Shown: in pieces, positions 35,630-43,473 of the stretch
How positions within the stretch are numbered: the first letter of the stretch is position 1
How the letters are laid out: each line of letters begins with the position of its first letter
Origin: Abyssogena phaseoliformis symbiont OG214
GTDB lineage: Bacteria > Pseudomonadota > Gammaproteobacteria > PS1 > Pseudothioglobaceae
Direction: 5' to 3'
Length of the DNA stretch: 64,000 nucleotides
NCBI RefSeq assembly: GCF_016592595.1
Contig: NZ_AP012977.1
Location: 1-64,000, forward strand
Made by a program: the position numbers and the translations under genes
The notes under the pieces: model-generated
Databases searched by the model: none
The model's input: the letters and a program-made list of their open reading frames with translations, nothing else
What the model was told of the DNA's origin: nothing

Positions 35630-36160
35630 ATGAACTCTAAGAAAGAATTATGGATATTGTTGGCGTCCTTTGTACTGCCGATTGCTTTTGGAACGGCTTT
35701 CTTTTACTTAAGCCCTACTTCTTTTACCCAGCATACGGTTAATTATGGACAGTTTGTTAATCCTGTTATTACCACTACAAAACAAGACGTTAGTTTTGTT
35801 GACACTCAAAGCGGTTTGCAAGGTTTATGGACATTGGCCTATGCAACCAAGCAATGTGACAGTGTTTGTATAAAAGCATTACAAGATATAAAGACTGTTC
35901 GTATTTTGATGAATGAAGACATGCGTCGTATTCAAAGTTTATTGTTAATGACAAGTAAAGCCAAAGCACAACAAGCAGACGCATTAGTTGGACATGCCAG
36001 CGAGGCGCTTAATCGACAACTTAATCAGTTCCCAGAAAGCAGTTTATTTTTGATTGACCCACTTGGCAATGTGATGTTGCGTTACGATTCAAAAAATTTA
36101 GAGATTAAGCGTGTTATTAAAGATTTAAAACGTCTATTTAAGTATTCACGCATTGGCTAA
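35630..36160 (+). CDS. Membrane-anchored protein of the oxidase assembly cluster
   Basis: The 176-residue product has one N-terminal membrane segment (LWILLASFVLPIAFGTAFFY) and a periplasmic domain. QGLWTLAYATKQCDSVCIKALQDIKTVRI, seen here as CDSVCIKALQDIKTVRILM, places a CxxxC motif like that of Sco proteins in a thioredoxin-like fold, and FLIDPLGNVMLRYD fits the fold's C-terminal strand. Similar proteins occur between cox and heme A synthesis genes in gammaproteobacteria, so a thiol or copper role in cytochrome oxidase assembly is likely but inferred. cyoE follows after 12 bases. Confidence 0.75.
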   Translation: MNSKKELWILLASFVLPIAFGTAFFYLSPTSFTQHTVNYGQFVNPVITTTKQDVSFVDTQSGLQGLWTLAYATKQCDSVCIKALQDIKTVRILMNEDMRRIQSLLLMTSKAKAQQADALVGHASEALNRQLNQFPESSLFLIDPLGNVMLRYDSKNLEIKRVIKDLKRLFKYSRIG

Positions 36161-36172
36161 TAGGAGATGATA

Positions 36173-37054
36173 ATGCCTTCAATCAGTGACTTGCTAGCTT
36201 TGTGTAAACTTAAAGTGGTAGCGCTGATATTGCTAACAGCAGTAGTGGGCATGTTTTTGGCCGTGCCTGCGCCGTATTTACCTAATGGGTTTTTGGTACT
36301 GAGCGCCTCAATTGGTATTAGTATGGCGGCCGCCTCAGCTGCAGTATTTAATCATGTGGTTGATGAACAGATTGATGCCCAAATGTCTCGCACTAATAAA
36401 CGCCCTTTACCGCAAGGGAAAGTAAGCCGAAACCAAGCGTTGGTGTGGGGCGTGTTTTTAGGACTTGTTGGTCTTGGTACTTTGCAGTTATTTGTTAATA
36501 CCGTTACCACGGTGCTTACGTTCGTTTCACTGATTGGCTACGCCATTATCTATACCTTGTATCTTAAACGTGCAACACCGCAAAATATTGTTATCGGTGG
36601 CGCAGCAGGTGCAGCACCTCCGGTGCTAGGTTGGACGGCAGTGTCTGGCACTCAAGGCATTGAGTATGCTTGTTTGTTGTTTTTAATTGTTTTTATCTGG
36701 ACGCCACCACACTTTTGGGCACTGGCCATTCATCGGGTTGAGGAGTATAAAAAGGTTGATGTCCCAATGTTGCCAGTAACACATGGGCTGGCCTACACCA
36801 GAACACAGATTTTGTTATACACAGTATTGTTGCTGCTGGTTAGTTTATTACCTTACTTAGCGGGCATGTCAGGGCTTATTTATTTAGCAGTAACAACAGT
36901 GCTAGGCATTAAATTTTTGATGTATGCGATTAAAATCTATAATAATCCAGATGATAAAAGGATTGCTTGGCGTACTTTTATGTACTCAATTAATTATTTA
37001 ATGTTGTTATTTGCTGCACTATTATTTGATCATTATTGGCTAATATTGCCCTAG
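36173..37054 (+). CDS. cyoE: Protoheme IX farnesyltransferase (heme O synthase)
   Basis: This UbiA-family membrane prenyltransferase adds a farnesyl group to heme B to make heme O, the precursor of heme A for the aa3 oxidase. The polyprenyl diphosphate motif reads NHVVDEQIDAQMSRTNKRPL (about residues 59-78), and WTPPHFWALAIHRVEEYKKV near 180 is the second conserved loop. There are about eight to nine membrane segments in 293 residues. ATG at 36173 is preferred to 36167 because TAGGAG directly abuts the earlier ATG. It is also called ctaB. Confidence 0.96.
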   Translation: MPSISDLLALCKLKVVALILLTAVVGMFLAVPAPYLPNGFLVLSASIGISMAAASAAVFNHVVDEQIDAQMSRTNKRPLPQGKVSRNQALVWGVFLGLVGLGTLQLFVNTVTTVLTFVSLIGYAIIYTLYLKRATPQNIVIGGAAGAAPPVLGWTAVSGTQGIEYACLLFLIVFIWTPPHFWALAIHRVEEYKKVDVPMLPVTHGLAYTRTQILLYTVLLLLVSLLPYLAGMSGLIYLAVTTVLGIKFLMYAIKIYNNPDDKRIAWRTFMYSINYLMLLFAALLFDHYWLILP

Positions 37055-37066
37055 GAGGTTTTTTAA

Positions 37067-37258
37067 ATGAAAGGATTGGGGCAAGTATTTAAAGCGGTAA
37101 CGTCTGCCATGATTGGCGTGGGCAAAAAAGAAGACTTGGCTAAGGACTTTGCACGCACTGAAAAACAAGGCCCGTGGGCCTACATTATTGTTGGACTGAT
37201 TACGACCTTTGCTTTTATCGGTTTAATAATAGTGGCTGTTAAGTTGGTATTGCCTTAG
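37067..37258 (+). CDS. DUF2970 small membrane protein
   Basis: The 63-residue protein has a soluble N-terminal part (MKGLGQVFKAVTSAMIGVGK) and one C-terminal membrane segment (IIVGLITTFAFIGLIIVAV). This matches the DUF2970 family, small proteins often found with cytochrome oxidase genes; their function is unknown. AGGAGG at 37054-37059 is a strong ribosome binding site. Its stop overlaps the end of the converging Sco-like gene by four bases. Confidence 0.8.
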   Translation: MKGLGQVFKAVTSAMIGVGKKEDLAKDFARTEKQGPWAYIIVGLITTFAFIGLIIVAVKLVLP

Positions 37259-37995
37259 TCAAGCGTTTCAATAATTATATCAAGCGCAACTGCTATTTTT
37301 TTAGCGTGGTGCGGGTTGGTTAATAATCCAGTTAATTTAAGACTGGGATCCAACAATAAATAACTAGTAGTGCGATTAATTAAGTAATGATTATTCATGT
37401 TTATAGATTTGTGGTTGCTATGGTCTTTGGTAGACCTTTGTTTTGTTTGTACCACTTCGTGATAAACACCCAGTGCTTTTGTTATTTTGTTCAAGACCTC
37501 TTTTTTAGCGCTAAGCCCTATAAATTTTTTGTTAGAATGTTGCGTAAAGTCAGATAAACGGCCTATATCACGCTTTGGATCAACAGAGATAAAAACAACT
37601 TGCAACTTGTCTGCCAGTTTCATTAATGTAAGCGTTTGGTTAAGTATGGACAAGTCTATTGGGCACACATCTGGGCAAGAGGCATAACCAAAATATAGCA
37701 TTGTCCACTTATTTTTACTTACCTCAGAGAGTGTTATTTTGTTGTTATTGTCATCAATTAATGGAAATTTATCCTTCAGAGATTTTGGGCTTGAATACAA
37801 GGAAACACTAGGAGAAACCTGTTCTTGCAATTTCGTCAGTTTGTTGGTATTAGGCGAGGCAAGTAAAAAGTAAGCCAAGATAAACATAACAATACTTAGC
37901 CCAAGGAGAACATTACGTGTTTTTTTAATTTTCGCGCAATCCTTGTTGTCGCTATAAGCGATAAATCGTTTGTTGTTGTGCTTTTTCATAGCCAT
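37255..37995 (-). CDS. SCO1/SenC-like protein with altered copper-ligand position
   Basis: Sco proteins are membrane-anchored thioredoxin-fold proteins that deliver copper to, or reduce the cysteines of, the CuA site of cytochrome oxidase subunit II. After a membrane anchor (NVLLGLSIVMFILAYFLLAS) come TMLYFGYASCPDVCPIDLSI with the CxxxC pair and VVFISVDPKRD. The position that holds the histidine copper ligand in Sco1 (YxVDH[ST]) reads YLINRTTSYLL, so arginine replaces histidine. A histidine occurs four residues earlier in the loop. ATG at 37995 is chosen because the longer frame overlaps ctaA; no clear ribosome binding site. It lies 16 bases after ctaA. Confidence 0.88.
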   Translation of the reverse strand: MAMKKHNNKRFIAYSDNKDCAKIKKTRNVLLGLSIVMFILAYFLLASPNTNKLTKLQEQVSPSVSLYSSPKSLKDKFPLIDDNNNKITLSEVSKNKWTMLYFGYASCPDVCPIDLSILNQTLTLMKLADKLQVVFISVDPKRDIGRLSDFTQHSNKKFIGLSAKKEVLNKITKALGVYHEVVQTKQRSTKDHSNHKSINMNNHYLINRTTSYLLLDPSLKLTGLLTNPHHAKKIAVALDIIIETLD

Positions 37996-38011: not shown

Positions 38012-38983
38012 TTATGTTGGCACTTTAAAGGCTCTATGCACAAGTTTAATAACGCTAAGTAACAATAATAACGCTACTATAGTATGCAAAACCGCTATTA
38101 TTATTGGCAATGAAAGGACGACATTAAGAATACCAAGTGTGACTTGTGTTGTTAATAAAATAGCAATCAATATTAAATTTGACCTGAAGCGGGTGTAATT
38201 TCTAAATAAATAAATAAGTAGCAGTATGAGCAGGGTTGTTATTAAGGCGCCAATACGGTGAATCATTTGAATGGCAGAACGTGCCGGGTTTTCTAATATG
38301 CCGTATTCATAATTAGCACCCAATGGCCCCCAATATAGTGCGCTAGAAAAATCCATATTGGGCCACCAATCGTTCAAGCATTTTGGAAAGTATTTGCCAC
38401 AAGACAGTGCTGCATAGTTGGTGCTAGTCCAACCGCCCAGAACAATTTGTAAGCTCAGTGTGCCCAGAACAATTAATAATATAAGTTTATGTTTTTTAAA
38501 AGTGTGCTGATAGATTGCTGGTGGCTTGCTTTGGTTAAGTAGCATCCAAATTAGCAATGCAGTCGTCACAAAGCCACCTATTAAATGCAAAGTGACAATG
38601 CCAGGATGTACCAGTAGAGTAACTGTCCACATGCCAAATGCGCCTTGCAGCATAACAAAAAAGGTGCTAAATCCAGGTAGTTTTAGTGACTGATAGCGTT
38701 GTGGGTTGCCTTTTAGTGCTAAGAAAAATAAAACAAGTATTGTCAGCCCAAGTGAGGAAGCAGCATAACGATGTAGCATTTCTTTCCAGCCTTTTGCAGC
38801 CTCTAGTGGACGTGAAAACCCTTGAATGGTAGTGCCATCTTTAACATCAGGAACGCTTAATTGACCATAACACCCTGGCCAGTCTGGGCAACCTAATCCA
38901 GCATCGCTTAGACGTGTGTAGGCGCCTAGAATAACAACAATAAATGCTAAGATAATTGAAATTTGTAGTATTGTTCTAAACAT
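38012..38983 (-). CDS. ctaA: Heme A synthase (COX15/CtaA family)
   Basis: CtaA oxidises the C8 methyl group of heme O to a formyl group, giving heme A. The 323-residue membrane protein shows the N-terminal VVILGAYTRLSDAGLGCPDWPGCYGQL, given as TRLSDAGLGCPDWPGCYG, with conserved cysteines, and heme-ligand-type histidines in EMLHRYAASSLG, GIVTLHLIGG, IQMIHRIGAL and IAVLHTIVAL. About eight membrane segments form two four-helix halves. With cyoE nearby, the full heme B to heme A route is here, supporting the aa3 oxidase downstream. Confidence 0.95.
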   Translation of the reverse strand: MFRTILQISIILAFIVVILGAYTRLSDAGLGCPDWPGCYGQLSVPDVKDGTTIQGFSRPLEAAKGWKEMLHRYAASSLGLTILVLFFLALKGNPQRYQSLKLPGFSTFFVMLQGAFGMWTVTLLVHPGIVTLHLIGGFVTTALLIWMLLNQSKPPAIYQHTFKKHKLILLIVLGTLSLQIVLGGWTSTNYAALSCGKYFPKCLNDWWPNMDFSSALYWGPLGANYEYGILENPARSAIQMIHRIGALITTLLILLLIYLFRNYTRFRSNLILIAILLTTQVTLGILNVVLSLPIIIAVLHTIVALLLLLSVIKLVHRAFKVPT

Positions 38984-40112: not shown

Positions 40113-41222
40113 ATGAGCAAATTGACGTCTCGCTTGGGCGGTTTGATTGCAATGGTGTCAGCAAATGCATTTGCTGAGTATGGTTTTAACATGACGCAAG
40201 GGGTTACCTCGGTCAGTCGTGATATCTATGGCTTGCACATGATGGTGTTTTGGATTTGTGTTGCCATTGCTGTTATTGTATTCGGTGTTATGATTTATTC
40301 GCTGGTCGTGCATCGTAAATCTCAAGGCGCCGTGGCTGCAAATTTTCATGAAAGCACAAAGGCCGAACTACTTTGGACAGGCGTGCCTATTATCGTTTTA
40401 GTATTAATGGCAATTCCTGCTTCAAGTGTGCTGATTGATTTAGAAGATACTTCTAAAGCGCAAATGACTATTAAGGTTACAGGACATCAGTGGAAATGGC
40501 AATACGATTACCTTAAAGAAGGCATTAGTTTTATCTCTAATCTTAAACAAGATTCTAAAGATGTGATTTATTCTGGAAATAGACATAAGAATTATTTGTT
40601 AGAAGTAGACAACAACTTAGTGTTACCAGTAGACACCTCTATTCGTTTTTTAATTACCTCAAACGACGTTATTCATAATTGGTGGGTGCCTGATTTTGGT
40701 GTGAAACAAGATGCCAACCCAGGTTTCATTAATGATGCATGGGCGCAGATTGATGAAATCGGCACTTATCGTGGTCAGTGTGCTGAACTTTGTGGCAAAG
40801 ACCACGGCTTTATGCCAATTGTGGTTGATGTGGTTTCCAAAGCAGATTACGCTAAGTGGGTATTAAAGCAACAGGCCGCTAAAGCAGCAATACTTGCCAA
40901 ATCAAGCAAAACTTGGCGTGAAGATGAGTTAATAAGTCTAGGTCAAAAAGTTTATAATACAAACTGTTCTAGTTGTCATGGCATTACTGGTAAGGGTATT
41001 CCTGGTGTTTTTCCAGCACTGAAAGGCAGTCCTGTTGCAACTGGCGATATTAAAAAACATATTAGTATTGTTTTGCACGGAAAGGCTGGAACAGCAATGG
41101 CTGGTTATAAAAATATACTAGGAGATGCTGATATTGCGGCGGTAATCACTTTTGAAAGGACTGCTTTTGGCAACCAAATGGGCGATTTAATTCAGCCAGC
41201 ACAAATTAAAGCGGCACGATAA
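40113..41222 (+). CDS. coxB: Cytochrome c oxidase subunit II with C-terminal cytochrome c domain
   Basis: Subunit II carries the binuclear CuA centre that receives electrons for the aa3-type oxidase. A signal peptide (to about residue 22, ANAFA) and two membrane helices lead to the CuA domain, with HNWWVPDFGVKQDANPG and GQCAELCGKDHGFMPI (about 222-237), holding both cysteines and ligand residues. A fused cytochrome c domain follows with CSSCHGITGKG (about residue 286), so electrons can enter directly, as in caa3-like forms. ATG at 40113 follows GAGAGAGGAG; the longer frame gives an implausible N-terminus. It leads coxB-coxA-small protein-ctaG-coxC. Confidence 0.96.
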   Translation: MSKLTSRLGGLIAMVSANAFAEYGFNMTQGVTSVSRDIYGLHMMVFWICVAIAVIVFGVMIYSLVVHRKSQGAVAANFHESTKAELLWTGVPIIVLVLMAIPASSVLIDLEDTSKAQMTIKVTGHQWKWQYDYLKEGISFISNLKQDSKDVIYSGNRHKNYLLEVDNNLVLPVDTSIRFLITSNDVIHNWWVPDFGVKQDANPGFINDAWAQIDEIGTYRGQCAELCGKDHGFMPIVVDVVSKADYAKWVLKQQAAKAAILAKSSKTWREDELISLGQKVYNTNCSSCHGITGKGIPGVFPALKGSPVATGDIKKHISIVLHGKAGTAMAGYKNILGDADIAAVITFERTAFGNQMGDLIQPAQIKAAR

Positions 41223-41244: not shown

Positions 41245-42849
41245 ATGACAACAGCAATTGCTCACACTGACGACCATCACGGCCCTGAAAAGGGCCTAAT
41301 GAGGTGGATTAAAACAACCAACCACAAGGATATTGGTTCACTATATTTATGGTTTGCATTTACCATGGTGCTCATTGGTGGCGTAATGGCAATGGTTATT
41401 CGCATGGAGTTATTCCAACCAGGTATGCAATTGGTTGAGCCACAATTTTTTAATCAGATGACAACCATGCATGGTTTGATTATGGTGTTTGGTGCGATCA
41501 TGCCTGCGTTTGTCGGTTTAGGTAACTGGCTTATTCCAATGATGATAGGTGCGCCTGATATGGCATTGCCACGGATGAATAACTGGTCTTTTTGGATTTT
41601 GCCATTTGCTGGCGGTATTTTATTAAGCACGTTTTTTATGGAAGGCGGCGCGCCTGCATTTGGCTGGACATTTTATGCACCATTATCAACAACGTTTGCA
41701 CCAGACAGTACTGACTTCTTTATTTTTTCAGTGCATTTATTAGGATTTTCATCCATCATGGGTGCGATTAATATTATTGCAACTGTGCTTAATATGCGCG
41801 CACCAGAGATGAAACTTATGGATATGCCATTGTTTGTATGGACATGGTTAATTACCTCATTTTTACTGATTGGTGCGATGCCAGTACTTGCGGGTGCAGT
41901 CACCATGATGTTGACAGATCGTAATTTTGGCACAGCATTTTTTGATGCAACAGGTGGCGGTGACCCAGTATTGTTTCAACATATCTTTTGGTTTTTTGGA
42001 CATCCTGAAGTTTATATTATGATCTTGCCAGCGTTTGGCGTGATTTCACACATCATTCCAACTTTTGCGCGCAAGCCTTTATTTGGCTATTCGTCGATGG
42101 TTTATGCCACTGCGTCGATTGCATTTTTATCCTACATTGTGTGGGCGCACCATATGTTTTTAACTGGTATGCCAGTTGCAGGCGAGTTGTATTTTATGTA
42201 CGCCACCATGCTCATTGCCGTGCCAACGGGCGTTAAGGTGTTTAACTGGGTGTCAACCATGTGGAGAGGCTCTATGACTTTTGAAGCACCAATGTTATGG
42301 GCGATTTCATTTGTATTCTTATTCACGATTGGCGGTTTTTCTGGTTTAATGCTGGGTATTGCACCGGCTGATATTCAGTATCACGATACTTATTTTGTGG
42401 TTGCACACTTCCATTACGTATTGGTGACAGGTGCGTTATGGTCTATCATTGCAGCAACGTTTTACTGGCTGCCTAAATGGACAGGCAAAATGTACAACGA
42501 AACTTTAGCAAAGGTGCATTTTTGGTGGGCAGTTATTTCAGTGAATGTATTATTCTTTCCTCAGCATTTTTTAGGGCTGGCAGGTATGCCTAGGCGTATT
42601 CCTGATTATTCGTTGCAGTTTGCTGATTTTAATATGATTTCCTCTATTGGTGGTTTTGCGTTTGGCGCATCATTTATTTTATTCACCTATATTGTGATTG
42701 ATTGTATTCGCAACGGCAAGCCAGCAGATGCTCGTCCTTGGGAGGGTGCTAAGGGTTTAGAATGGACTTTAGAGCCTAAGGCGCAGTATCATAGTTTTAA
42801 TACGCCACCAACAAGAGCATTAATTGAGAAAGAATCTCAACACTCTTAA
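41245..42849 (+). CDS. coxA: Cytochrome c oxidase subunit I (aa3 type)
   Basis: Subunit I is the catalytic core with heme a, heme a3 and CuB, reducing oxygen to water and pumping protons. [20 protein letters not shown] holds a heme a ligand; [20 protein letters not shown] contains the CuB histidine and the cross-linked tyrosine region; [12 protein letters not shown] has the paired CuB histidines; and [16 protein letters not shown] has the heme ligands near residue 386. The glutamate of GHPEVYI marks an A-type oxidase. At 534 residues and about 12 helices it is normal length. CATAGGAG at 41229-41236 is the ribosome site. Confidence 0.98.
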
Positions 42850-42947
42850 TGGCAAATAAAAACAATCAAGGCGTGGTAATTACCGTGGTAATTACTAGCG
42901 CTATTGCAATAGGTGTGTTTGTAGCAACCATTGTATTGTATGGCTAA
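42849..42947 (+). CDS. 32-residue small membrane protein of the cox operon
   Basis: A short frame starts at an ATG overlapping the coxA stop (TAATG) and ends overlapping ctaG by eight bases (ATGGCTAA). It encodes [19 protein letters not shown] followed by a further hydrophobic stretch ending VLYG: one membrane segment with a short basic N-terminus. Its exact fit between coxA and ctaG and the double overlap argue that it is translated. It resembles in size and place the small oxidase accessory proteins annotated between coxA and ctaG in other proteobacteria, but I do not recognise a specific family. Confidence 0.75.
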   Translation: MANKNNQGVVITVVITSAIAIGVFVATIVLYG

Positions 42948-43473
42948 AATAGAGAGCAGGCAAAAAATAACAAAGAAGTTTTGGACAAAACTATTTCTAG
43001 CACCAATATTGATGTTTTTCTTTGCTTATGCAATGGTGCCTATTTATGATGTGTTTTGTGAAATTACTGGGTTTAATGGCACAACAGGCAGGGTGGATAG
43101 TGAACAGACGTATGTTGTAGATGAGACACGTAAGGTTGAGGTCAGTTTTTTTGCCATGACAATGGGCGGCTTCCCAGTCCAATTTGGACCTAAAGTGAGT
43201 TCAATGGCGGTCATACCTGGTAAGTTTTATACCACCAGCTATATTGCCAAGAACAATACTGATGAAATTGTTATCGGACAAGCAGTTCCTAGTGTTGCAC
43301 CGACAGATGCCGCTGCATATTTTAAAAAATTAGAGTGTTTTTGTTTTAATAAACAAGTGTTTAAGCCACATGAGCAAGTTGAGATGACTTTAAGATTTGT
43401 GATTGAACCAGAATTGGACGAACGTATTAAAGATGTGAGTCTGTCTTATAACTTTTTTAAACTTAAGGGCTAA
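42940..43473 (+). CDS. ctaG: Cytochrome c oxidase assembly protein CtaG/Cox11
   Basis: Cox11/CtaG is a copper chaperone that builds the CuB site in subunit I. One N-terminal membrane helix (LAPILMFFFAYAMVPIYDVF) precedes a periplasmic immunoglobulin-like domain. The copper-binding motif is KKLECFCFNKQVFKPHE (about residues 126-142) with the conserved CFCF, and PSVAPTDAAAYFKKL comes before it. ATG at 42940 is preferred to the frame's earlier start because it gives MAKIESRQK and overlaps the small upstream gene by eight bases, suggesting coupled translation. The 177-residue length is typical. Confidence 0.95.
   Translation: MAKIESRQKITKKFWTKLFLAPILMFFFAYAMVPIYDVFCEITGFNGTTGRVDSEQTYVVDETRKVEVSFFAMTMGGFPVQFGPKVSSMAVIPGKFYTTSYIAKNNTDEIVIGQAVPSVAPTDAAAYFKKLECFCFNKQVFKPHEQVEMTLRFVIEPELDERIKDVSLSYNFFKLKG

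Follow-up and report, generated by a model that had tools for sequence, protein, structure and literature searches.

A Sco homologue with arginine at the copper-ligand histidine position in the aa3-oxidase cluster of a clam endosymbiont: a candidate early stage of gene loss

The analysed window, the first 64,000 nucleotides of contig NZ_AP012977.1 of the Abyssogena phaseoliformis symbiont OG214, encodes an aa3-oxidase cluster in the order PA_0111-like CxxxC gene, cyoE, small ORF, sco-1, ctaA, coxB, coxA, ctaG, coxC, surf1 and ccoN (Table 1). The sco-1 and ctaA genes are read from the minus strand and the remaining listed genes from the plus strand. Four of the genes are presumably cyoE, coxA, coxC and surf1 as named here, and we take the small ORF to be DUF2970-like. 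Sco-1 scored 85.2 bits against PF02630 (curated cut-off 22.8), which identifies it as a SCO1/SenC homologue, and by eye it has a single N-terminal membrane helix. CPDVC comprises residues 105-109 and YLINR residues 202-206, so that of the copper-binding Sco pattern CXXXCXnH (PMC9145763) the CxxxC is present and the distal histidine is absent. The initial annotation had recognized the intact CxxxC. It had placed the gene at 37375-37995, an interval that ends one codon before the arginine and omits residues 206-244, and it had counted the nearby upstream histidine, H201, as four residues before the arginine rather than five. No stops, frameshifts or truncation were found over the 244-residue frame, which carries a private, in-frame 9-bp gap near the N-terminus. 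In a structure model calculated from the single sequence, of too low a confidence for judging geometry (mean pLDDT 42), R206 was positioned between two short strands.

Table 1. Coordinates of sco-1, its residues of interest and neighbouring genes in the window.
Feature	Position	Strand	Remarks
Sco-1, SCO1/SenC homologue, 244 aa	37255..37989	-	PF02630 E 5e-24; reading frame intact
CPDVC, C105 and C109	37663..37677	-	both cysteine copper/redox ligands intact
R206, codon CGC	37372..37374	-	aligned to third copper ligand position of Sco proteins; GCG on the plus strand
S152	37534..37536	-	column is Phe in 33 other complete orthologues
H201, upstream histidine	37387..37389	-	five residues ahead of R206
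H190 and H193, DHSNH loop	37411..37422	-	alternative ligand candidates
ctaA (COX15-CtaA)	38012..38983	-	22 bp upstream of sco-1, same strand
63-aa convergent ORF	37067..37258	+	end overlaps sco-1 by 4 bp
cyoE/ctaB, heme O synthase	36167..37054	+	name assumed
CxxxC membrane protein, PA_0111/PP_0108-like	35630..36160	+	under family cut-off
coxB, CuA motif (H...CAELCGKDHGFM) and cytochrome c domain	40116..41222	+	start approximate
coxA, cytochrome c oxidase subunit I	41245..42849	+	name assumed; served as search query
ctaG/cox11, cytochrome c oxidase assembly protein	42931..43473	+	PF04442 E 1.3e-46

When the Sco-1 family (15 sequences) was aligned by hhalign with the family of the second Sco of these genomes, Sco-2 (9 sequences), YLINRTTSYLLLDP was paired with YLINHTAWIYLVNP, placing R206 in the column of the ligand histidine. 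Plant SCO1 (6n5u) likewise aligned its YLVDH at the R206 column, in a second, weakly scoring stretch (i-Evalue 9.4). Local HMMER alignments to Bradyrhizobium japonicum ScoI (Blr1131) set H190 on the MDHT histidine, at the end of the alignment. H190 was rejected as the ligand equivalent, since the ScoI alignments stop at that point and family members carry both histidines. On the best alignment R206 does occupy the third copper ligand position, which agrees with the initial reading of an arginine at the copper-ligand histidine.

At this site every one of the 33 other complete Sco-1 orthologues has histidine, as have five copies that are partial or broken (G040, G039, G001, G072 and G018), in G040 within the piece that lies past a frameshift. 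A hand tally of the 81 PF02630 matches with E of 1e-12 or better in 83 family genomes gave histidine in 80 of the 80 others. The relics of G039 and G072 are not among these 81 matches, and an order-level search covered the same 83 genomes. The initial annotation had left it to an alignment of homologues whether the change is fixed in the group; it is not, the arginine being found in one genome only. Two relics from the same genus, those of G040 and G039, still extend over the site, and each has CAC where the window reads CGC, a single A-to-G transition on the coding strand, which bears out the description of the codon as one transition from CAC. In the sister pair G036/G041 the Sco-1 relics are deleted at the ligand site, and whether the change predates that split therefore cannot be told. 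The 33 other complete orthologues share 44 invariant columns, from which the window protein departs at two, H206R and F152S. In a leave-one-out count the other orthologues carried 0-4 such changes each, so that two changes do not by count alone set the window gene apart.

The second Sco gene of the genome is canonical (G000:C1:902950-903627, minus strand), with CPDVCP and GYLINHTAW, and is adjoined by a gene for a PCuAC copper chaperone with the motif HX10MX21HXM. The initial annotation had considered that a second canonical Sco gene might make this one a distinct subfamily. Such a gene is indeed present, and a distinct ligand-less Sco subfamily was ruled out because the change occurs in one genome only. 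Sco-2 with its ligand histidine and PCuAC were both found in 12 of 12 genomes of the genus set, the window's genome included. In G034, G038 and G044 the long Sco-2 match spans one stop codon and the Sco domain itself is stop-free. Sco-2 was present both in G043, where ccoN was found with no match to coxA, and in G044 (120 contigs), where coxA was found with no ccoN. Since a second canonical Sco is present, it is unlikely that aa3 assembly depends on the Sco-1 copy.

Among the 12 genus genomes, only that of the window has an open Sco-1 frame. G040 has a single-base frameshift, possibly an assembly error, and in G039 the gene is split into pieces that lie apart. Fragments remain in G036 and G037, and stops or deletions run across the copies of these two and of G041, where stops are combined with a large deletion. 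No Sco-1 remnant was found between cyoE and ctaA in G034, G035, G038 and G042, the draft genome G044 gave no Sco-1 match, and in G043 neither Sco-1 nor coxA was matched. Candidatus Ruthia sp. Cpac_8_S14 is one of the genomes with a broken Sco-1. Ten genomes of the genus possess coxA with no intact Sco-1 found. A tree built from eight concatenated genes placed the window with G036 and G041 with a support of 100. Sco-1 may have been lost on as many as six branches (G036/G041, G037, G039, G040, G044 and the clade of G034, G035, G038 and G042), a count that depends in part on two weak supports (58 and 83). The lesions in G037, G039 and G040 differ from one another.

We next consider selection on the gene itself. 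Changes private to the window branch were counted against G040, G039 and G041, all of them broken copies. Over 134 codons sco-1 had accumulated 10 nonsynonymous and 13 synonymous changes (dN/dS 0.19), as compared with 26 nonsynonymous and 137 synonymous changes (0.05) in ten neighbour genes pooled. This excess was significant against the ten pooled neighbours (Fisher p 0.004) and gave p 0.10 against four control neighbours. The broken copies had ratios of 0.25 (G040), 0.41 (G041) and 0.51 (G039, six changes only). In five intact, histidine-bearing orthologues counted in like manner (G074 and G076-G079) dN/dS ranged from 0.04 to 0.19, and three of the five also showed a significant excess over their neighbours (p below 0.01). 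The values for these orthologues and for the control neighbours weaken any claim of relaxed selection on the window gene. Neutrality over the whole window branch was rejected for sco-1 (binomial p 1e-4). With neutrality rejected and dN/dS within the range of the orthologues, either the histidine was lost recently or the protein keeps a role that does not require copper. On the same branch ctaA had the highest ratio of the ten neighbours (0.385, from the small numbers of 7 nonsynonymous and 5 synonymous changes), exceeding that of sco-1.

We consider that Sco-1 is probably a redundant paralogue in the first stages of being lost, with its frame still open, and that Sco-2 and PCuAC cover its copper job. 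Sco-1 is the oxidase-cluster-linked member of a SCO1/SenC pair in a bacterium of the Ruthia group, which are clam endosymbionts, and comparison shows that a single CAC-to-CGC change turned its copper-ligand histidine into arginine. The R206 protein would then presumably be unable to support CuA metallation of CoxB when copper is low. Sco-2, together with PCuAC, can probably cover CuA assembly, since Sco-2 is found in every genome of the genus, including the ten with coxA and no intact Sco-1. If the two do cover it, Sco-1 is redundant, and the window would represent an early stage of a loss that, judging from the pattern, is more advanced in the other genomes sampled from the genus. That the gene is beginning to fail was one of three suggestions of the initial annotation and is the best supported of them: no intact Sco-1 was found in the 11 other genomes of the genus, and a second canonical Sco is present in the window's own genome.

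The best experimental proxy that we found is the H176A variant of Streptomyces lividans Sco, in which the ligand histidine is likewise gone and the CxxxC kept, the replacement being an engineered alanine instead of a natural arginine. According to the available text of PMC3603459, H176A binds Cu(II), does not rescue the oxidase activity of a sco deletion strain at low copper and has a small negative effect in the wild type. R206 Sco-1 would by analogy be expected to perform poorly as a CuA chaperone. In Paracoccus denitrificans the two paralogues ScoA and ScoB are described as overlapping in function in the available part of PMC9145763. Because these paralogues overlap, and because ten genus genomes have coxA with no intact Sco-1, replacement of Sco-1 by Sco-2 and PCuAC is plausible. 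The Paracoccus pair resembles Sco-1 and Sco-2 in being two paralogues, and it differs in that ligand loss is described for neither protein in the accessible portions of PMC9145763 and PMC6696091, whereas Sco-1 is without the third ligand. More broadly, Sco-1 is like the SCO1/SenC chaperones (PF02630; Bradyrhizobium ScoI, Rhodobacter SenC) in family, CxxxC and linkage to aa3-oxidase genes, and unlike them in having arginine in place of the third ligand histidine. A natural ligand-less Sco paralogue is already known in Arabidopsis HCC2, which the available text of PMC3971200 describes as lacking the copper-ligand histidine with a canonical paralogue alongside, as here. HCC2 also lacks both cysteines and is of a type reported there as common in plants, whereas Sco-1 lacks the histidine only, and in one genome. 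Among the matches listed in the open-licence literature, none described a bacterial Sco without the histidine alone, and nothing on point appeared either for Sco1/SenC in Ruthia or Vesicomyosocius or for natural ligand variants.

Sco-1 might instead now work without copper, as a thiol-disulfide reductase by which the CuA cysteines of CoxB, or Sco-2, are kept reduced, with the histidine dispensable. We consider this unlikely. It is consistent with the retention of the CxxxC and of 42 of the 44 invariant columns, with the purifying selection on the window branch, and with the available text of PMC6696091, which puts forward P. denitrificans ScoA as a possible thiol-reductase and describes human Sco2 as a protein of this kind. 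However, the human Sco2 activity is described there as copper-dependent. In the insulin assay reported in the accessible part of PMC3603459, reductase activity is absent from both the wild-type Sco of S. lividans and its H176A variant, and the ten genus genomes with coxA and no intact Sco-1 found speak against a reductase role as well. The initial suggestion of a protein acting only as a reductase is compatible with the intact CxxxC and the purifying selection on the gene and loses ground on the behaviour of the matching histidine-to-alanine mutant. Furthermore, the cluster holds another conserved CxxxC protein, encoded at 35630, which had been proposed to share the role. This protein is real, with a CxxxC invariant across 30 copies, and is present in 11 of the 12 genus genomes, including the ten with coxA and no intact Sco-1. 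Its sole NCBIfam match is to the PA_0111/PP_0108 redox-active disulfide protein (E 3e-10, 40 bits, cut-off 230). Its kinship with Sco is not convincing: hhalign set CxxxC on CxxxC over 40 columns (E 0.011, probability 3.8%), and the one weak PDB match was a SCO1/SenC lipoprotein (E 0.08). That Sco-1 is a selectively maintained ligand-less Sco whose sole role is to reduce thiols of CoxB or Sco-2 in the periplasm, separate from the loss in sister lineages, seems to us quite improbable.

The arginine, which is unique among the copies read and comes from the single assembly of the species, could also stem from an error in assembly or base calling, or be a minor variant within the symbiont population. 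We judge this explanation improbable too, since the genome is one contig with an estimated completeness of 99.99 and contamination of 0.31, and since F152S is a second invariant-site change in the same gene. Finally, it is very unlikely that H201, or H190 or H193 of the DHSNH loop, replaces the ligand and leaves Sco-1 a copper chaperone, because the near-invariance of H190 and H193 (each kept in at least 90% of the 15 aligned Sco-1 sequences) and the ScoI alignments that end on H190 are set against the longer profile alignment and against orthologues that carry these histidines alongside the ligand histidine. The idea of a compensating nearby histidine was not upheld for H201 in particular, since a histidine at this position co-occurs with the ligand histidine (HYLINHT in G039, HYDIDHT or HYEVDHT in several others) and did not arise as a substitute for it.

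Under the preferred reading of Sco-1 as a redundant paralogue on its way to loss, these genomes would offer a natural series for the loss of a redundant copper chaperone with the aa3 oxidase kept, leading from histidine-bearing orthologues outside the genus, through an open gene with arginine, to copies that are frameshifted, in fragments or gone altogether. How two bacterial Sco paralogues divide their labour becomes testable, and the loss pattern predicts that Sco-2 and PCuAC suffice for CuA assembly in these symbionts.

Several further features were observed in the course of the comparison. The G041 relic (L107) reads CPDVR, with CGT where the aligned copies have a cysteine codon (TGC or TGT), which is another metal-ligand loss in a copy already broken. 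G039 (L110, L111) carries two copies of hisF, of the 35630-type gene and of most of cyoE, and its Sco-1 pieces lie apart, which points to a duplication or rearrangement through the Sco-1 locus. The ctaA gene of G036 (L108 5867-6834) was recovered as two overlapping tblastn pieces with an apparent frameshift, which may be a genuine lesion or an artefact of assembly. G043 gave no match to the 35630 protein either and retains ccoN, Sco-2 and PCuAC; its aa3-oxidase cluster was possibly lost as a unit. The DHSxH stretch is nearly invariant in the aligned Sco-1 sequences, between the LGVYH block and the ligand hairpin, and could be an extra metal site of the Sco-1 family; the Sco-2 copy P0002 is without it. 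Lastly, Sco domains with the ligand histidine present were found in frames of 323-504 residues (G045:C81, G064:C43, G072:C112, G066:C50, G059:C8 and G004:C16), and these longer frames point to an additional type of Sco within the family.
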